Shown one piece after another: positions 404 to 9,193 of a stretch of DNA of 9,193 nucleotides; position 1 is the first letter of the stretch; each line of letters begins with the position of its first letter. The notes under the pieces are model-generated. The model did no database searches, was not told the DNA's origin, and was given only the letters and a program-made list of their open reading frames with translations. Source of the stretch: Candidatus Latescibacterota bacterium (GTDB taxonomy: Bacteria; JAAXHH01; JABIQT01); assembly GCA_018667995.1 (NCBI GenBank), contig JABIQT010000139.1, forward strand, positions 1-9,193, written 5' to 3'. A program made the translations under genes and the position numbers.

Positions 404-496
404 AGTCGAATGAAAAGATCCCCATAATAGTTTGATGCTTCGGGGCTCATCGCTTTCTGACCTTTCCGCTGCAGGAATACTGTCGGTGTCGTCGTA

Positions 497-525
497 CTGC
501 CAGCAGATAATTCTAATGATATTAT
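497..525 (+). promoter_or_regulatory. Candidate sigma70-type promoter of the ABC importer operon
   Basis: A -35-like CTGCCA (497-502, 4 of 6 to TTGACA) and a -10-like TATTAT (520-525, 5 of 6 to TATAAT) are separated by exactly 17 nt. Transcription would start near 532 and give a leader of about 80 nt before the ATG at 615. The stretch around the -10 is clearly more AT-rich than its surroundings. This rests on pattern matching only; the -35 is mediocre. Confidence 0.45.
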
Positions 526-526
526 C
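506..526 (+). promoter_or_regulatory. Fur-like operator overlapping the promoter
   Basis: GATAAT (506-511) and ATTATC (521-526) form perfect 6-nt inverted arms around a 9-nt centre that itself contains TAAT-GAT-ATTA. Read from 506, the site matches 13 of 19 positions of the classical Fur box consensus, whose hexamers are GATAAT, GATAAT and ATTATC. The spacing between outer hexamers is 2 nt longer than in the consensus. It covers most of the spacer and the -10 of the candidate promoter, where an iron-loaded Fur dimer would block RNA polymerase. The downstream genes form a ferric-type ABC importer, which makes iron repression plausible. Confidence 0.45.
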
Positions 527-565
527 CCCTGATTCTCCCGCAAAATACCGCTACAGGCGCAACGC

Positions 566-601
566 CGCAGCCGAATTTCGGCGTGCGTCATCGTTGACGC
601 A
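566..601 (+). promoter_or_regulatory. Structured leader: two adjacent hairpins before the RBS
   Basis: Hairpin B is perfect: TGCGTCA (584-590) pairs with TGACGCA (595-601) around the 4-nt loop TCGT. Hairpin A pairs GCCGAA (570-575) with TTCGGC (577-582). Because its predicted loop is a single base, the innermost pairs would open. A can be extended by CGCA (566-569) with TGCG (584-587) past one bulged G. The extended form of A and hairpin B compete for 584-587. The Shine-Dalgarno-like AAGG (603-606) begins one base after hairpin B, so folding could influence ribosome access to the first gene of the operon. Function is inferred. Confidence 0.4.
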
Positions 602-614
602 TAAGGCAAATACC

Positions 615-2024
615 ATGCGTGCCTTCTTCTGGCTTTTTCTTCTCATCACTTTCCTACTCCCAGCTCCTGTTGACGCTGCGGACCGTCTCGTGATTATCAC
701 ACCGCACTGGGAAGGCATTCGTTACGAGTTTGCCGACGGCTTTGAAGTCTTTTACCAGAGGGAAACTGGGCGCGAAGTGGCCATTGAGTGGATGGATGTA
801 GGTGGAAGTTCCGAAGTGTTGCGATTCATCAAGTCCGAATTCAAGAACAAACCTGAGGGAATAGACGTAGATCTGCTCTTCGGAGGGGGCAGCGATCCGT
901 ACCTGGAACTTTCTCGTGTCGATCTTCTTGAATCGTACGTGTTACCGGATTCTATCATGTCACGGTTGCCCGAATCCGTTGGAGGGTACCCCCTGTACGA
1001 CGATGATTTCAAGTGGTATGGCGCTACTATTGCAGGATTCGGTATCGTCTACAACAAGCACGTGCTGAACATCCTGGATTTACCGGAGCCTTCCACATGG
1101 GACGACCTGACGCAACCGGGAAAGTTCACCTGGATCGGCTCGGCAGATCCTCGAAAGAGTGGCAGCGCCCACATGCCATTCGAGATCATCTTGCAGGCCT
1201 ACGGATGGGAACGGGGATGGCAGATTATCACGGCCCTTGGCGCCAATACGAGGAATTTTGCCAACGCCGGCAGCCAAGTTCCTAAAGATGTGACAACGGG
1301 TGAAGTTGCATACGGCATGTCGATCGATTTCTATGCGTGGGCACAGATCAATGAGGTAGGAGCCGACATGATCGGTTTTTCTCTACCGGACAATCTGACC
1401 ATCGTTAACCCCGATGCAATAGCCATGCTGAAGGGAAGCCCCAATCCAGAGGTAGCTCGCTCATTCCTCCGCTTTGTGTTTTCTCCCTACGGCCAACGGC
1501 TATGGATGATGAATGTAGGTACACCGGGGGGACCCACCAAGTTTCAACTGAACCGTTTCAGCGTCCTACCAGACCTCTATGACAGCGTGGATCCTAAGAA
1601 CACATCCGTGACTTTTAATCCCTTCGAGTGGAGTTCGAACTTCGTTTACGATGCCGAGAAGGGATCCGCGAGATGGGGAATTCTGAACGACCTCATAGGC
1701 ACGTTCATCATCGATGCCCACCAGCAACTACGTGCTGCATGGAAGAAAGCCATTGAGTCAGAAACGACCAATGAGATACTTCCTGCGCTGGCTGTAATGC
1801 CTGTCACCGAAGAAGAAGCAAGCGTACTCGGACGTGAAAAATGGCGAGATCAAACCTACCGGAACAGCACGTTGCTCGAATGGGGGAGACTGGCGAATAA
1901 GAAATACGGCGGTAATGCCGACCAGTTACCTATGACCGATAAAATCGTGCTTCTCGGCAGCCTGATATTTGGGTGCGTAATGACCGGATATCTATGGCGC
2001 TTGAATCGGAAAGGCGCCAAGTAG
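615..2024 (+). CDS. ABC importer solute-binding protein, Fe(III)/AfuA-FbpA type, with C-terminal membrane anchor
   Basis: This is a 469-residue extracytoplasmic binding protein that captures ligand for the permease and ATPase encoded next. The ATG at 615 is chosen because AAGG lies 8 nt upstream and the protein then opens with a clean signal peptide (MRAFFWLFLLITFLLPAPVDAA, cleavage near 21-22). The frame stays open upstream to an ATG at 432, but that stretch holds the promoter and leader. The bilobal type II fold is suggested by YGATIAGFGIVYNK (135-148), TWDDL (161-165), the hinge-side GEVAYGMSIDFY (229-240) and a PEVARSFLRFVFSPYGQRL segment (278-296). At the place of the FbpA iron-binding Tyr-Tyr pair the sequence is Phe239-Tyr240. 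No lipobox Cys is present. A hydrophobic helix at about 443-461 followed by RLNRKGAK predicts a tether with the tail in the cytoplasm. Iron is the likeliest ligand, but sugar phosphates, phosphonates or thiamine are possible. Confidence 0.85.
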   Translation: MRAFFWLFLLITFLLPAPVDAADRLVIITPHWEGIRYEFADGFEVFYQRETGREVAIEWMDVGGSSEVLRFIKSEFKNKPEGIDVDLLFGGGSDPYLELSRVDLLESYVLPDSIMSRLPESVGGYPLYDDDFKWYGATIAGFGIVYNKHVLNILDLPEPSTWDDLTQPGKFTWIGSADPRKSGSAHMPFEIILQAYGWERGWQIITALGANTRNFANAGSQVPKDVTTGEVAYGMSIDFYAWAQINEVGADMIGFSLPDNLTIVNPDAIAMLKGSPNPEVARSFLRFVFSPYGQRLWMMNVGTPGGPTKFQLNRFSVLPDLYDSVDPKNTSVTFNPFEWSSNFVYDAEKGSARWGILNDLIGTFIIDAHQQLRAAWKKAIESETTNEILPALAVMPVTEEEASVLGREKWRDQTYRNSTLLEWGRLANKKYGGNADQLPMTDKIVLLGSLIFGCVMTGYLWRLNRKGAK

Positions 2025-2104
2025 ATTAGTTTTCAGACTTGCACGTTCCAGCACCTGTGTAATCACATCATCCTGTAACGCATCAAACATAGCGGAAATT
2101 CTCA

Positions 2105-3187
2105 ATGGTCAGCGTCACGCTAGAACAGGTTACCAAGGAATTTGGTGAGGTTCAGGCAGTCCGAAACGTCTCTCTCGATATCCAAAAAGGGGAGCTGTTT
2201 TTCATGCTCGGTCCATCCGGTTGCGGGAAGACCACTCTTCTGCGCATGATAGCCGGATTCTATCTACCGACCATGGGCCGGATTCTATTTGCGGATAGAG
2301 ATATCAGCCGAACACCACCGCACAAGCGCAACTCCGGGATGGTGTTCCAGAATTATGCACTCTGGCCCCACATGACCGTAAGTGAAAATGTGGCATATGG
2401 ATTGTCCGTTCGGAAAGTATCTGGGTCGGAACGAAAGCGGCGAGTGGATGAAGCACTCGATATGGTGCGAATGAAGCGCTATAGCGAGCGTTCTCCCAAC
2501 CAACTCTCCGGTGGCCAACAACAACGCGTAGCGCTCGCTAGGGCGCTGGTCATAAACCCCGATGTCGTATTGCTTGACGAGCCGCTCTCGAATCTCGACG
2601 CGAGACTACGGCTTGAAATGCGTGATGAAATCCGCAGAATTCATGATGAAATCGGTGCTACCATGATTTATGTGACCCACGATCAGAAGGAAGCCCTTTC
2701 AATGGCAGACCGCATTGCGATCATGGGCATGGGTGAAGTAAGACAGATTGGTGACGCCCGGATGGTCTACAATCAACCGGCGGATCGCTTCGTAGCTAAT
2801 TTCATAGGGGAAACCAACTTCATTGATGGCACTTTGACGGAGCAAGTAAGCTCCGAGAAAAGTATTGAGACGGATGTGGGCGTTCTTCGGTCCACTGCAC
2901 CCGAATCTAAGCCGCGAACGACTGGTGATGAAGTCTCCTGTTCCATTCGACCGGAGGAAATCCAGATAGTCGATGATAGCATAGAGGATCCGAACTCCAA
3001 TTGTATCCAGGCCCATGTGACCCAGATCATGTATCTCGGCGAGCATGAACAGTATACTGTAATCTTGAGTGACGGTACGCTCATTAAGGTCGTCGAATAC
3101 AGCCCGGAGTCCCGCAGGGCCCAGGTCGGCGACGAAGTGAGTCTCCGTTTCCCCACTTCCCGTGTCGTGATTCTCGATAGGGAATGA
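2105..3187 (+). CDS. ABC transporter ATP-binding protein, FbpC/PotA-like with TOBE domain
   Basis: This 360-residue cytoplasmic ATPase powers the importer. All catalytic elements are intact: Walker A GPSGCGKT (36-43), Q-loop Gln82 in VFQNYALWPHM, signature LSGGQ (134-138), Walker B VVLLDEP (154-160), D-loop SNLD (162-165) and the switch His192 in VTHDQ. YALWPHM is typical of the group that includes FbpC, PotA and CysA. The C-terminal third (about 235-360) has the IRPEE (281-285) and VGDEVSLRFP (341-350) pattern of a TOBE_2 regulatory domain. The gene begins 80 nt after the binding protein stop, with only a weak ribosome site (AGCGGA, 2091-2096), and ends 19 nt before the permease. It most likely belongs to the same operon. 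Substrate is set by its partners, not by this subunit. Confidence 0.92.
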   Translation: MVSVTLEQVTKEFGEVQAVRNVSLDIQKGELFFMLGPSGCGKTTLLRMIAGFYLPTMGRILFADRDISRTPPHKRNSGMVFQNYALWPHMTVSENVAYGLSVRKVSGSERKRRVDEALDMVRMKRYSERSPNQLSGGQQQRVALARALVINPDVVLLDEPLSNLDARLRLEMRDEIRRIHDEIGATMIYVTHDQKEALSMADRIAIMGMGEVRQIGDARMVYNQPADRFVANFIGETNFIDGTLTEQVSSEKSIETDVGVLRSTAPESKPRTTGDEVSCSIRPEEIQIVDDSIEDPNSNCIQAHVTQIMYLGEHEQYTVILSDGTLIKVVEYSPESRRAQVGDEVSLRFPTSRVVILDRE

Positions 3188-3206
3188 ATTTCCAGGCGTA
3201 AACAGT

Positions 3207-4907
3207 ATGTTTTCTCGTTGGTTTGACACATCGGATCTATCGCCGGGGCTTGTGGCCTTTCTGGCCTTGCTAGCGATCTTTTTCGGTGCATTCCTGGTAT
3301 ATCCACTGTTGTATGTTTTTCTAAACGCATTCTACCAGGATGGTCAGTTCTCAACTACGTTTTTCGGCTTAATGCTGCAAAACCCGGTGCAGCAGCGCGC
3401 ACTGATCAACAGCTTCGAACTGGGCATAGCGGCCACGATCGCTACAACGATAATCAGTCTGCCTATAGCCTACGCTCTTGTTCGTTTTGATTTTCCCGGC
3501 AAAGGAATCCTTGGCGGCCTGATGCTCATCCCCATGGTCATGCCCCCGTTTGTTGGTGCCATTGGGATGCGTCAGATGTTCGCGCGTTTCGGTTCGGTCA
3601 ACCTCCTTTTGCTTGATACAGGAATTATCGAGACTCCCATTGATTGGTTTGGCGGGGGTGGTTTCCTGGGCGTCGTCGTGTTGGAGGCGTTGCATCTTTA
3701 CCCACTGATGTACCTGAATATTGCGGCTGGACTGGCCAATGTGGATCCCAGCCTGGAAGAATCAGCACGAAATGTGGGGGCCAGCGGATTCCGACTGTTC
3801 CGGACAGTAACGTTTCCCTTGATGCTACCCGGATATTTCGCGGGAGCCATCATCGTTTTCATCTGGGCGTTCACCGATCTTGGCACTCCCTTGATCTTTG
3901 AGTACCGCGAAGTCGTTTCCGTACAGATATTTAACATGGTAACCGACGTCCATGAGAATCCAATCGGCTTCGCATTGGTCGTCCTTGTATTGCTGTTGAC
4001 CTTGATACTGGTATATCTCTCGAAGAAATTCTTCGGTGGCCGCAGATATGAAATGATAGCCCGCGGACACGTAGTCTCAGCCGCACGGAAAGCGACCAGA
4101 GGTCAAACCGCGCTGATATATTTTGCGCTGCTGTCTGTAACAGCGATTGCGCTGATTCCGCATGCCAGTGTGGTGTTGACGTCCATTTCTGATCGGTGGT
4201 TCATGACCGTATTACCGTCGGAATATACCGGGGCCTATTACAGCCAGATATTTGATCATGACCTGACACTTCTCTCGATCAAGAATAGCCTGTTTCTCAG
4301 CGTACTCAGTACGATCATTGACGTGGTGCTTGGCGTGATGATCGCCTACGTTTTGACACGACGTCGGTTTCCGTTCAAGGATATGCTGGATGCATTGACC
4401 ATGTTGCCCCTGGCGCTACCCGGTCTGGTCCTTGCATTTGGATATGTAGCCGGATTTTCGGGTACCTGGTTTGATGTCAGAGAATCGCCAGTGCCATTGC
4501 TTATAATAGCGTATGCCGTTCGACGGCTACCCTATATGGTTCGCGCGGCGTATGCGGGTTTTCAGCAGACCAGCATCGCCTTGGAAGAAGCGTCCATGAA
4601 CCTGGGAGCGGGGCCCTTTCGCACACTCTGGAAGATCACGCTACCGCTGGTGGTCGCGAATCTTGTTGCAGGGGCTATTCTCTCGTTCTCGTTTGCCATG
4701 CTCGAAGTAAGTGACAGTCTGATATTGGCGGTGAAGGAACAGTACTATCCTATCACGAAGGCCATCTATGCCCTTATGGGCCGTATAGCCGATGGCCCCT
4801 ATATGGCGAGTGCCATGGGAATGCTCGGTATGGCTTTACTGGCAGGTAGCTTGATATTCACCGGTAAGGTTCTCGGCAAGAAAATGGGAGAACTCTTCAA
4901 AGTGTGA
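3207..4907 (+). CDS. ABC importer permease, fused two-domain type (FbpB/AfuB-like)
   Basis: This 566-residue inner-membrane protein contains two copies of the binding-protein-dependent permease domain, so one chain can form the whole channel. The two cytoplasmic coupling (EAA) loops are easy to see: EESARNVGASG ending at Pro204 (184-204) and EEASMNLGAGP ending at Pro480 (460-480), each followed by a transmembrane stretch. Roughly six hydrophobic segments lie in each half, with a hydrophilic linker at about 272-300 (KKFFGGRRYEMIARGH). Fused permeases of this size are typical of FbpB/AfuB ferric-iron importers and relatives for thiamine and aminoethylphosphonate. AGG at 3194-3196 is a plausible ribosome site 10 nt before the ATG. 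The gene is intact and closes the importer operon. Confidence 0.92.
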   Translation: MFSRWFDTSDLSPGLVAFLALLAIFFGAFLVYPLLYVFLNAFYQDGQFSTTFFGLMLQNPVQQRALINSFELGIAATIATTIISLPIAYALVRFDFPGKGILGGLMLIPMVMPPFVGAIGMRQMFARFGSVNLLLLDTGIIETPIDWFGGGGFLGVVVLEALHLYPLMYLNIAAGLANVDPSLEESARNVGASGFRLFRTVTFPLMLPGYFAGAIIVFIWAFTDLGTPLIFEYREVVSVQIFNMVTDVHENPIGFALVVLVLLLTLILVYLSKKFFGGRRYEMIARGHVVSAARKATRGQTALIYFALLSVTAIALIPHASVVLTSISDRWFMTVLPSEYTGAYYSQIFDHDLTLLSIKNSLFLSVLSTIIDVVLGVMIAYVLTRRRFPFKDMLDALTMLPLALPGLVLAFGYVAGFSGTWFDVRESPVPLLIIAYAVRRLPYMVRAAYAGFQQTSIALEEASMNLGAGPFRTLWKITLPLVVANLVAGAILSFSFAMLEVSDSLILAVKEQYYPITKAIYALMGRIADGPYMASAMGMLGMALLAGSLIFTGKVLGKKMGELFKV

Positions 4908-4991
4908 CATCGTATCTCTAATTACATGATTGACTAGCGAACGACACGTCGGGCGGGGCGGGGCGTTGCATGATTGAGGATGGTGAGCAAG

Positions 4992-5729
4992 ATGCAGGAA
5001 GAGGAGCGCCCCGACACATCGACACCTAAGAGAGAATCGCTGCACGCGCGTATTCGAAATAGGTTAAAAAGACTGATGGTGACCGGACTGCTGACATTGG
5101 TACCAGTCGCGGCCACATTTGTTGTCTTGCGCTGGGTGCTCGTGTGGATGGACTCAATCGCCGCACCGGTGATCCGGGGAACAATCGGCCTGCATATCCC
5201 AGGCTTGGGAATACTGCTGACATTGGCACTCATACTCATCGTAGGTTTCCTCGGTACGAGTGTCTTCAGCCGTAGTGTCATTGAGTGGGCTGAAACGTCC
5301 TTAATGCGCCTGCCCATCGTCAAGATTGTATACAACCCTGTAAAGAACCTGCTCGGAACGTTCGCGCAGCCTCCTGATGCACGCATCTGGAGAACCGTTA
5401 TCGTCGAATACCCCCGGCGGGGCGCTTGGATGATCGCCTTCGTAGCGAGCGAACTTCCGGGTTCAAATGGCGAGATATTGAGCGTCTTTGTACCTAACAC
5501 GCCGAACCCTGCTGCGGGTAGAGCGATAATTGTACCGCGAGGCGAGGTCCAATTCGTGGACATACCCATTGATGATGCACTGGAATTTGTGGTCTCCGGG
5601 GGAACAGCAGTTGCTCCGTCCTTCGATATTCTCAAACAGGTTAATCTGTCCATTGCCAAGGAAGAATCCACCCCTCAAACCGCGGGAACAACTCGGATTC
5701 TCCCCGGCGTGGACGATACCCCCGGATAG
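4992..5729 (+). CDS. DUF502 family integral membrane protein
   Basis: This 245-residue protein shows the DUF502 pattern: a basic N-terminus (KRESLHARIRNRLKRL), a first membrane helix (about 30-52, GLLTLVPVAATFVVLRWVL), IPGLGILLTLALILIVGFLG as the second (69-88), then a soluble part with VEYPRRG (138-144), VFVPNTPNP (165-173) and VSGG (201-204). The family is widespread, but its biochemical role is not established to my knowledge. The start is uncertain. ATG 4992 has GAGG (4976-4979) and GGTGAG (4982-4987) upstream. ATG 4980 and TTG 4974 in the same frame would add 4 or 6 residues but lack well-placed ribosome sites. The gap from the permease stop is 84 nt and shows no terminator, so read-through from the importer operon is possible. 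Confidence 0.87.
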   Translation: MQEEERPDTSTPKRESLHARIRNRLKRLMVTGLLTLVPVAATFVVLRWVLVWMDSIAAPVIRGTIGLHIPGLGILLTLALILIVGFLGTSVFSRSVIEWAETSLMRLPIVKIVYNPVKNLLGTFAQPPDARIWRTVIVEYPRRGAWMIAFVASELPGSNGEILSVFVPNTPNPAAGRAIIVPRGEVQFVDIPIDDALEFVVSGGTAVAPSFDILKQVNLSIAKEESTPQTAGTTRILPGVDDTPG

Positions 5730-6063: not shown

Positions 6064-7641
6064 ATGATCAATCCGATCAATCTGCTCTTCCTACAGTGGC
6101 AGAACTATTTTGACATCCTCTTTGTGACTGTGCTGATATACAGCGTTTATATCTGGCTCAGAGGCACCAGGGCGTTTCACATTCTGATAGGCCTTGGTGG
6201 TTTGGGTATGCTGTATGTACTCACCAGCTGGAGTGGTCTATTCCTGACCAGCTGGCTTCTGCAGTACCTTCTGGGTGTTACCCTCCTCTTAATCATTGTG
6301 ATTTTCCAGCCTGAAATCAGACAGCTGCTGGAGAAGGTCAGCCCACTCGCGATTATAAAGCTCAAGGGCGGTACCGTGCCGCGAACCGTTCTAAGTAAGG
6401 TGGCCGGCGCCAGCTTCAGCCTGGCAGATGAGCGAGTAGGCGCACTCATTGTTTTTCCTCGGGCGACACCCATTTCCGATGTGCTTCGTGACGGCATATT
6501 GCTGGATAGTAGAGCCAGCGAAGAGTTGCTGATCTCCATTTTTCAAAAGACATCTCCCATGCACGACGGAGCGGTAGTCATTGAGAAAGATAGGATCGTC
6601 AAGGCGGGCTGCTATCTGCCCATGTCGACACGCGAAGACCTTCCCCCCAAATACGGTACACGACATCGCGCCGCCCTAGGTGTTTCTGAACAAGGGGATC
6701 CCCTTTGTGTGGTGGTCTCCGAAGAACGTGGCGTGGTTTCTGTGACGCAAGACGGGGAAATTGAAACCATTACTGGCGAAGACCAATTGCGGCTGCGCTT
6801 GGAGAAGTCCCTTTCACCAAATCCCGTTTCTTCTGTGCAATCGACCATTCGGGAGACTATTGAAAGCCGATTCAACTACCAGGAATTCATTCGGAAGAAC
6901 TTCCTGGCAAAGTGCCTTTCCACGGCTCTTGCATGTCTACTCTGGTTTCTCCTTGTTGGACAGCAATGGTCCGAGACTTTTACGACAGCAATGCTGGAAT
7001 ATCAGAATAAACCAAGTGGTATGGATTTTACGGCGGAAGTGGTTAGCGAGATTCAGGTACGGGTCCGCGGTCCGCGAGGCAGCATATCAAGTTTGGATCC
7101 GGACCAGGTGAGAGTATTGCTGGATCTGTCTGAGGTGCAAGTAGGCGAGAATTCCTTTACCATAACAGAAGAAAACCTGAGCCTGCCCTTTGGACTCGAA
7201 GCTACAGCCATAACACCAAGGACGCTGACCATACAGCTCGATCGTATCGTGAGCAGGCAATATACGGTGACTCCAGCCTTGGTCGGCTCTCTGTCACCAG
7301 GATTACGCTTGGCCTACATTAACGTCACACCGGAAAGAATTGAACTGAGCGGGCCCGAGAAAGAAATGGACCAGATCGAACGGGTTACCACACCGCCGAT
7401 CGACCAATCAACGCTTCGTCAGAGTGCCGTAATTCCATGCGAAGTAGAGGTGTACCCTACTTTTGACTACGCCTTCCGGTCGCCAATCCCCGAAGTGTCC
7501 GTAAGCCTCAGCCTGATTCAGGAGCCCGTGGACAGTGAAGAGGAACAGCCAGTTTCAAGCTCCGCAAACAGAATCCAAGCATTCATGGATCTTGCTGGTT
7601 CTAGTCCTACGCTCGCGCCCGGTCCTGCTGAAATTCCTTGA
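6064..7641 (+). CDS. Diadenylate cyclase fused to YbbR domains (CdaA-CdaR fusion)
   Basis: This 525-residue protein is predicted to make cyclic di-AMP from two ATP at the inner membrane. Residues 1-270 are a complete CdaA: three membrane helices (about 16-31, 39-54, 59-81), FQPEIRQLLE (81-90), then a cytoplasmic DAC domain with both catalytic motifs, Asp168-Gly169-Ala170 and Arg200-His201-Arg202. A fourth helix (about 283-300) is followed by two YbbR-like repeats (about 301-394 and 398-486) that would lie outside the cytoplasmic membrane, and an acidic Ser/Pro-rich tail (487-525). In Firmicutes the cyclase CdaA and its YbbR-domain regulator CdaR come from separate adjacent genes; here they are one chain. 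The start at ATG 6064 has AGGGA (6049-6053) 10 nt upstream and yields the expected CdaA N-terminus. No glmM lies within the window. Both motifs are intact, so activity is expected. Confidence 0.92.
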   Translation: MINPINLLFLQWQNYFDILFVTVLIYSVYIWLRGTRAFHILIGLGGLGMLYVLTSWSGLFLTSWLLQYLLGVTLLLIIVIFQPEIRQLLEKVSPLAIIKLKGGTVPRTVLSKVAGASFSLADERVGALIVFPRATPISDVLRDGILLDSRASEELLISIFQKTSPMHDGAVVIEKDRIVKAGCYLPMSTREDLPPKYGTRHRAALGVSEQGDPLCVVVSEERGVVSVTQDGEIETITGEDQLRLRLEKSLSPNPVSSVQSTIRETIESRFNYQEFIRKNFLAKCLSTALACLLWFLLVGQQWSETFTTAMLEYQNKPSGMDFTAEVVSEIQVRVRGPRGSISSLDPDQVRVLLDLSEVQVGENSFTITEENLSLPFGLEATAITPRTLTIQLDRIVSRQYTVTPALVGSLSPGLRLAYINVTPERIELSGPEKEMDQIERVTTPPIDQSTLRQSAVIPCEVEVYPTFDYAFRSPIPEVSVSLSLIQEPVDSEEEQPVSSSANRIQAFMDLAGSSPTLAPGPAEIP

Positions 7642-7716: not shown

Positions 7717-8622
7717 ATGCGGAGGTATTTCTCATACGTGCAGTCACGTGGCGTGAAAACGGCGGTTCTTTACGCCGTAATCCTGGCAATCTTAGTCAAC
7801 TTTTTGCCACCGCATCAGGCAAACGCCCAGATGACACCCGTTGCAAGCGACGGCCTCGTTCGTGTCCGGGCACGGGCCGCACTCGTACTGAATCTGCACA
7901 GCGGCGAAGTGATTTATCAGAAGAATCCATTGGCGAAGCTACCCATCGCAAGTGTCACCAAGCTCATGACAGTTCTAACGTTCATGAGTCTGAACCCTGA
8001 TCTTGACAAGCGCATAACAATCAGTCGGCAGGATGTGTACAGGGCAAACTGGACCACCCTCAAGTACCGTGAGAAAGTCTACGTCAGAGATCTGCTTCAT
8101 GCTACGCTAATCTCGTCCGACAATGCAGCTGCCCGAGCCCTATCAGCCGCTACCGGGCTGACACGAAGAGAGTTTGTGGCGCGCATGAACCAGACGGCAG
8201 TGTCTCTGGGTCTTGTCAACTCAAGCTTTACGGAACCGACCGGATTGGATGCAGGCAACGTCTCGACAGTAGTAGATTGTGCTGCGCTTCTCTGGACGGC
8301 CCTGCAGAACAACGTGGTGTCCCAAATTCTCGCCATGCCGTTCTACACTTTTAGAACCAATCGCCGGCAGCACAACATTAAATCAACAAATCAGCTATTG
8401 AGAAATGATGATCCAGAACTTTGGAGCATTTTAGGTGGTAAGACAGGCTACATACGCAAAGCAGGATACTGTCTGGTGACACGTGCGCAAGACAGTTCTG
8501 GAAATGACGTAGTCGCAGTGGTCCTGGGCGGCGTTTCCAGCCGGACACGGTTCGCTGATATGCGAAGATTATTACACTGGGGATTTCAGAATATCGAACA
8601 ACAGGACAGAATTGGCGGATAG
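7717..8622 (+). CDS. D-alanyl-D-alanine carboxypeptidase/endopeptidase (class C penicillin-binding protein, S11 family)
   Basis: This 301-residue exported serine peptidase trims peptidoglycan stem peptides. The three active-site motifs of the S11 family are present in order: Ser79-Val-Thr-Lys82 (nucleophile and base), Ser134-Asp-Asn136, and Lys242-Thr-Gly244. A signal peptide (basic MRRYFSYVQSRGVK, hydrophobic core 15-30, cleavage after QANA at 37) directs it out of the cytoplasm. The ATG at 7717 is preferred, with AAAGGG (7701-7706) 10 nt upstream. An in-frame TTG at 7666 would add 17 hydrophilic residues in front of the signal peptide. There is no C-terminal PBP5 domain or amphipathic anchor, so it resembles PbpG (PBP7) in length and may act as a soluble periplasmic D,D-endopeptidase. 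The gene follows the cyclase by 75 nt and is probably cotranscribed with it. Confidence 0.92.
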   Translation: MRRYFSYVQSRGVKTAVLYAVILAILVNFLPPHQANAQMTPVASDGLVRVRARAALVLNLHSGEVIYQKNPLAKLPIASVTKLMTVLTFMSLNPDLDKRITISRQDVYRANWTTLKYREKVYVRDLLHATLISSDNAAARALSAATGLTRREFVARMNQTAVSLGLVNSSFTEPTGLDAGNVSTVVDCAALLWTALQNNVVSQILAMPFYTFRTNRRQHNIKSTNQLLRNDDPELWSILGGKTGYIRKAGYCLVTRAQDSSGNDVVAVVLGGVSSRTRFADMRRLLHWGFQNIEQQDRIGG

Positions 8623-8840: not shown

Positions 8841-9193
8841 ATGGTGTATTTTCCACTCACTCAATCGGGTAGGCGTCTATTTATCGCCGTACTGAGTGCC
8901 GTCCATATGCTGTCGTTCTTGCCGTCGGTTCAAGCTGCCAACGGCAAGCTGACTATCGCCCGATTGAAGTACAACGGCGGTGGAGATTGGTATAACGATC
9001 CAGAGTCAATACCCAACCTTGCCCGAGAGCTTAGTCGTCGTGCTGGTATAGAAACCAATGAAGAGCAGCAGATAGTCAATCTGACAGACGACGCATTATT
9101 CTCCCATCCAATCCTATTCATGACCGGCCACGGTGAGGTGAAATGGAGCAACTCCGAGGTGCTGAGAATGCGAACGTATCTCATGCACGGCGG
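8841..9193 (+). CDS. Exported DUF4159 domain protein, N-terminal part
   Basis: The gene starts at ATG 8841 with GAGGA (8829-8833) 7 nt upstream and runs off the right edge after 117 codons and two bases. A signal peptide (about 1-31: RR at 11-12, then LFIAVLSAVHMLSFLPSVQA) predicts export. The mature part begins with the DUF4159 signature: LTIARLKYNGGGDWYNDP (37-54), then SIPNLARELSRRAGI (56-70), and LFMTGHGEVKWS (92-103) with its TGHG turn. DUF4159 proteins are common in Bacteroidetes, Planctomycetes and neighbouring phyla and often occur with MoxR ATPase, DUF58 and von Willebrand type A genes. Their reaction is unknown. Such partners might follow beyond the window. The two immediately upstream genes are close enough to share a transcript. 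Confidence 0.85.
   Translation, partial: MVYFPLTQSGRRLFIAVLSAVHMLSFLPSVQAANGKLTIARLKYNGGGDWYNDPESIPNLARELSRRAGIETNEEQQIVNLTDDALFSHPILFMTGHGEVKWSNSEVLRMRTYLMHG

Follow-up and report, generated by a model that had tools for sequence, protein, structure and literature searches.

A predicted CdaA-class diadenylate cyclase with CdaR (YbbR) at its C-terminus in Candidatus Latescibacterota

Introduction

Diadenylate cyclases make cyclic di-AMP, which serves bacteria as a messenger. Among them, CdaA (DacA) of Firmicutes and their relatives has a three-helix CdaA_N domain and a DAC domain with DGA and RHR motifs. CdaR (YbbR), the product of the gene after cdaA, has a single membrane helix with an LA..LWF pattern followed by YbbR repeats. 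An interaction of YbbR with the CdaA membrane region is described in PMC6368335, which cites two-hybrid work, and in PMC10243994. The way in which CdaR acts on CdaA is not settled, and its effects differ or are absent between species. The window, which is the whole 9,193-nucleotide stretch of Candidatus Latescibacterota DNA analysed here, contains one open reading frame that appears to encode both proteins. Is this a genuine fusion, how widespread and how old is it, and what might it mean for cyclic di-AMP synthesis?

Results and discussion

One frame encodes CdaA and CdaR

The gene runs without an internal stop from ATG to TGA over 525 codons. Its parts are as follows.

6064-7641, + strand: CdaA-CdaR fusion gene, 525 aa (frame, Pfam, NCBIfam, same fusion in relatives)
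6097-6318, + strand: CdaA_N membrane domain, residues 12-85, three helices at about 4-34, 37-57 and 60-80 (Pfam PF19293; AlphaFold helices)
6412-6759, + strand: DAC diadenylate cyclase domain, residues 117-232 (Pfam PF02457; Foldseek against solved CdaA/DacA domains)
6565-6573, + strand: DGA motif, residues 168-170 (sequence; invariant in 12 aligned fusions)
6661-6669, + strand: RHR motif, residues 200-202 (sequence; alignment of fusions)
6799-6897, + strand: linker, residues 246-278 (alignment; dN < dS for segment 246-300)
6898-6960, + strand: fourth membrane helix, residues 279-299, CdaR-type LA..LWF signature (hydropathy; invariant L293/W294; comparison with 47 separate YbbR proteins)
7000-7236, + strand: YbbR repeat 1, residues 313-391 (PF07949, 30.4 bits)
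7267-7452, + strand: YbbR repeat 2, residues 402-463 by profile, modelled strands to about 486 (PF07949, 31.8 bits; AlphaFold)
7522-7638, + strand: C-terminal tail, residues 487-525, of low confidence and poor conservation (pLDDT <50 from 490; 15-30% identity to relatives)

In the Pfam search of the protein, CdaA_N scored 24.8 bits (cut-off 23.8), DAC 134.8 bits (cut-off 27) and YbbR, in two stretches, 55.2 bits in total (cut-off 22.3). Each YbbR repeat also exceeded 22.3 bits on its own in a six-frame search. The NCBIfam model TIGR00159, "diadenylate cyclase CdaA", matched residues 5-248 with 190.3 bits, barely above its equivalog cut-off of 188.8. The N-terminal part is thus of the CdaA type, with CdaA_N followed by DAC, the TIGR00159 match and both motifs, and cyclic di-AMP synthesis is predicted for it. 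RHR is found in all aligned members of the phylum, and R200 and H201 are invariant in all 12 aligned fusions. Whereas an ordinary CdaA ends soon after DAC, this protein goes on directly and in the same frame into a CdaR-type part, a membrane helix followed by YbbR repeats. This part differs from the CdaR of lactic acid bacteria in being attached to CdaA and in having two repeats instead of three or four (PMC10243994). The initial annotation had read the gene as an intact CdaA with three helices, DGA and RHR that continues without a stop into a fourth helix and two YbbR-like repeats. Pfam, NCBIfam, AlphaFold and hydropathy all agree with that reading, and the profile search found YbbR homology in residues 301-486, so the objection that this region might hold none falls away.

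AlphaFold placed helices at 4-34, 37-57, 60-80 and 272-298. Hydropathy peaked at 37-55, 58-89 and 279-299, with helix 1 below the threshold used (1.6). The DAC fold was modelled with pLDDT mostly 76-92, followed by two strand-rich domains at about 76-87 and a disordered tail. By sequence and by fold (Foldseek TMt about 0.8-0.9) the DAC domain matches solved CdaA/DacA domains, and the best 50 Foldseek matches to the full-length model are all DAC. The YbbR half matches solved YbbR domains (2kq1, E 0.0043; 2l3u, marginal, E 1.2); modelled alone from four sequences, it was poor (pLDDT 46.8). As the full-length model has a pTM of 0.36, the relative placement of its parts is unreliable and it does not establish the packing of helix 4 on CdaA.

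The identity of helix 4, LAKCLSTALACLLWFLLVG, is of particular relevance to the joint. In 47 separate YbbR proteins of other lineages the helix mostly follows the pattern LK..S..LA..LWF.V, with the tryptophan in 43 of them, and L293 and W294 of helix 4 are invariant in the 12 aligned fusions. Helix 4 therefore bears the same LA..LWF signature as the helices of separate CdaR proteins, which indicates that the end of CdaA is joined to the start of CdaR, end to end. The linker varies in sequence and length among the aligned fusions, always keeps the frame, and is basic right before helix 4, as expected on the cytoplasmic side. Judged from the parts, their order and the helix pattern, the DAC domain would lie in the cytoplasm and the YbbR repeats outside. 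The CdaA-CdaR fusion with this topology, as proposed at the outset, is supported by the profile matches, by conservation and selection, and by a fourth helix of CdaR type; the 1:1 ratio of CdaA to CdaR proposed with it follows from the fusion itself.

The fusion is conserved in the phylum

Could two neighbouring genes have been joined by an assembly or sequencing artefact? The source genome is a fragmented draft of 1165 contigs, and in other phyla cdaA and ybbR are often neighbours that in some cases share a frame and are parted by one stop codon. We examined 16 genomes of the phylum, from one order, three families and five genera. The fusion is an uninterrupted single frame in 15 of them, where it is about 48-62% identical to the window's protein and is, in each genome, both the only DAC match and the only protein with YbbR matches over the cut-off. 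The same continuous frame is thus present in 14 other assemblies, at 48-62% identity and on contigs of up to 2.9 Mb, which refutes the join by sequencing error near codons 265-285 that the initial annotation had raised.

In 12 of 12 close pairs, dN was lower than dS in the CdaA, junction, helix-4 and YbbR segments (for example, 0.036/0.156 for the junction with helix 4 and 0.013/0.254 for DAC), and only the tail was loosely constrained. The fusion is under purifying selection through the junction. An artefact was rejected on the independent assemblies and on dN < dS at the junction, and we regard it as extremely improbable.

The remaining genome (G002) contains neither the fusion nor the adjoining S11 peptidase gene, as would be expected if this stretch had not been assembled; a true loss is not favoured, as the adjacent S11 gene is absent too.

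CdaA-YbbR proteins in other lineages

A profile built from the fusions was searched against 384 genomes. For most CdaA genes outside the phylum, YbbR is encoded by a gene of its own, often the neighbouring one. Single-frame fusions were verified, among the matches listed, in at least 11 further genomes of at least eight families (f27, f102, f223, f232, f162, f91, f138 and f140). Like the window's protein, those of the eight other families have a CdaA part, a membrane helix and YbbR repeats in one frame, with two repeats in some and one in others. They are diverged: the two that were aligned with the window's protein share 27-30% identity with it. DAC was found by Pfam in 11 of 11, and YbbR by Pfam in 8 of 11 and by a custom YbbR profile in 11 of 11. 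Long open reading frames of up to 678 aa around other CdaAs, examined as possible hidden YbbR fusions, are not such fusions. When the single protein was used as the query, a genome-contig collection yielded one relative only, an unfused Anaerolineales CdaA, and viral contigs yielded none.

The architecture itself is not new, since a 2023 review already describes CdaA and CdaR as fused in some streptococcal strains (A5LQF8, E1M7C3, V8IIN0; PMC10243994). Going by the review's description alone, these are the same kind of fusion, for which it suggests that helix 4 touches helix 1 of CdaA; they occur in some strains only, whereas the fusion of the window's phylum is fixed in 15 of 16 genomes as the sole DAC protein. 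The view that CdaA and CdaR are separate in Firmicutes thus has the streptococcal strains as an exception. As far as the literature consulted shows, three points are new: the fusion is fixed as a phylum's sole DAC protein, it recurs in at least eight further families, and fused and unfused proteins are sharply split in the tree of CdaA.

In six loci of other lineages (L018, L020, L021, L022, L023 and L025), cdaA and ybbR are distinct genes that share a frame, parted by one stop codon and 0-9 bases up to the next start. Such gene pairs are one mutation short of a fusion.

Fused and unfused CdaA proteins in trees

In maximum-likelihood trees of the CdaA region, a single branch divided the 18 sampled fusions from all separate CdaAs, in a sample that was taken from the matches listed and began from the fusion profile, which may favour the grouping of fusions. 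Support for this branch was 98/93, with one long-branched weak row beside the fusions at modest support, and 100/99 after long rows were left out. Split from the separate CdaAs by a well-supported branch, the fusion looks old and seems worth a subfamily name.

When the tree was rooted with DisA and built from DAC columns alone, the separate CdaAs were a clade and the fusions formed a grade basal to it; a tree in which the fusions were constrained to one clade was not rejected (p-AU 0.387). Given the very long outgroup branch and the short alignment, this tree does not choose between a single gain of the fusion and later fission. The fusions might represent an old CdaA branch of their own over many lineages, the two-gene form possibly having arisen by fission of a fused ancestor. 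Fission comes into consideration because the fused proteins are basal in the DAC tree rooted with DisA, and we find this account quite doubtful.

A probable cyclase with its own CdaR

The best explanation of the locus, and in our view a likely one, is a membrane-bound CdaA-class diadenylate cyclase with CdaR at its C-terminus, in which every cyclase has its own CdaR that possibly biases DAC pairing. In the proposed working, the three N-terminal helices would hold the DAC domain in the cytoplasm. The linker would return the chain to the membrane, where helix 4, the CdaR helix, probably packs on the CdaA helices and leaves the YbbR repeats outside. Two DAC domains would pair head to head and convert two ATP to cyclic di-AMP, as in other DAC enzymes; such pairing is needed for activity (PMC8573169). 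Each cyclase would keep its fused CdaR bound at all times, and the YbbR region, through sensing the state of the envelope or setting helix packing, could bias the frequency of DAC pairing. Control would then run from outside to inside through the fused YbbR, the extracytoplasmic sensor that the initial annotation had proposed, and the data are compatible with either activation or restraint. As the sole DAC protein in these genomes, the fusion should be the main or only source of cyclic di-AMP, presumably opposed by a DHH-type phosphodiesterase encoded elsewhere.

Reports on YbbR differ. In Chlamydia it is necessary and limiting for DacA activity (PMC12422730), so that a fusion would be useful. 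In S. aureus YbbR had no conclusive regulatory effect (PMC6368335), and so the YbbR of the fusion may have no regulatory role. The fusion could in that event be a matter of gene organisation only, with a tethered YbbR that has its own role in the envelope, such as a scaffold or in cell-wall work. The gene for an S11 D-Ala-D-Ala peptidase that follows the fusion across the phylum fits such a role, as does the faster evolution of YbbR repeat 2 than of DAC (37-47% against 57-74% identity). Against a mere tether stand a helix 4 conserved with its CdaR signature, a frame kept in the whole phylum and the requirement for YbbR in Chlamydia, and we consider it unlikely.

Outside the phylum, RHS or RHA replaces RHR in 8 of the 11 fusions (L092, L093, L094, L095, L096, L101, L103 and L107), and the activity of these proteins may be altered. 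An unfused CdaA is also present in four genomes (G103, G114, G188 and G323), where the fusion is therefore a second enzyme; several of the genomes with RHS or RHA, among them G103, G114 and G188, have such an unfused CdaA. These features would suit a degenerate or altered enzyme that keeps the DAC fold with little cyclase activity. For the window's phylum, with DGA and RHR intact, the fusion as the only DAC protein and a very low dN/dS in the DAC domain, this is very unlikely.

A cyclase that carries its own CdaR would be of practical use as well. In a natural, stable fusion both proteins are in one chain and the question of stoichiometry is gone, and in a single membrane protein the roles of YbbR and helix 4 are testable by truncation and solvable structurally.

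Gene surroundings and cyclic di-AMP turnover

Across the phylum the fusion lies between an ABC transporter and DUF502 upstream and an S11 peptidase and DUF4159 downstream. In the window, a solute-binding protein, a TOBE-domain ATPase and a double-length permease (435-4907) make up a complete iron/polyamine-type ABC importer. A DUF502 membrane protein (4980-5729) lies directly upstream of the fusion, a position kept in several genera of the phylum. The S11 D-Ala-D-Ala peptidase (7717-8622) and the start of a DUF4159 protein (8841-9193) follow downstream, in the same order as in relatives. GlmM was not among these scanned neighbours, so the usual cdaA-cdaR-glmM operon is not seen there.

A cyclic di-AMP riboswitch was found in one phylum genome only (G015), as two copies (L140 and L141, from about 1501) ahead of genes of the amino-acid-permease family, and in none of the other 15. 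It was rejected as a feature of the phylum; contamination of those contigs is possible.

As to breakdown, no PgpH-type phosphodiesterase matched over the cut-off. Every phylum genome encodes a pair of DHH proteins: the larger has the size of RecJ, and the smaller is about 330-420 aa long, with 323 aa in the window's genome. Judging by its family, the smaller may be a phosphodiesterase that acts on cyclic di-AMP or on its linear product. In another genome (G299), a DHH-DHHA1 phosphodiesterase gene (L135, 4687-5649) directly adjoins a fused cdaA-cdaR, and the two are a candidate synthesis-and-breakdown pair.
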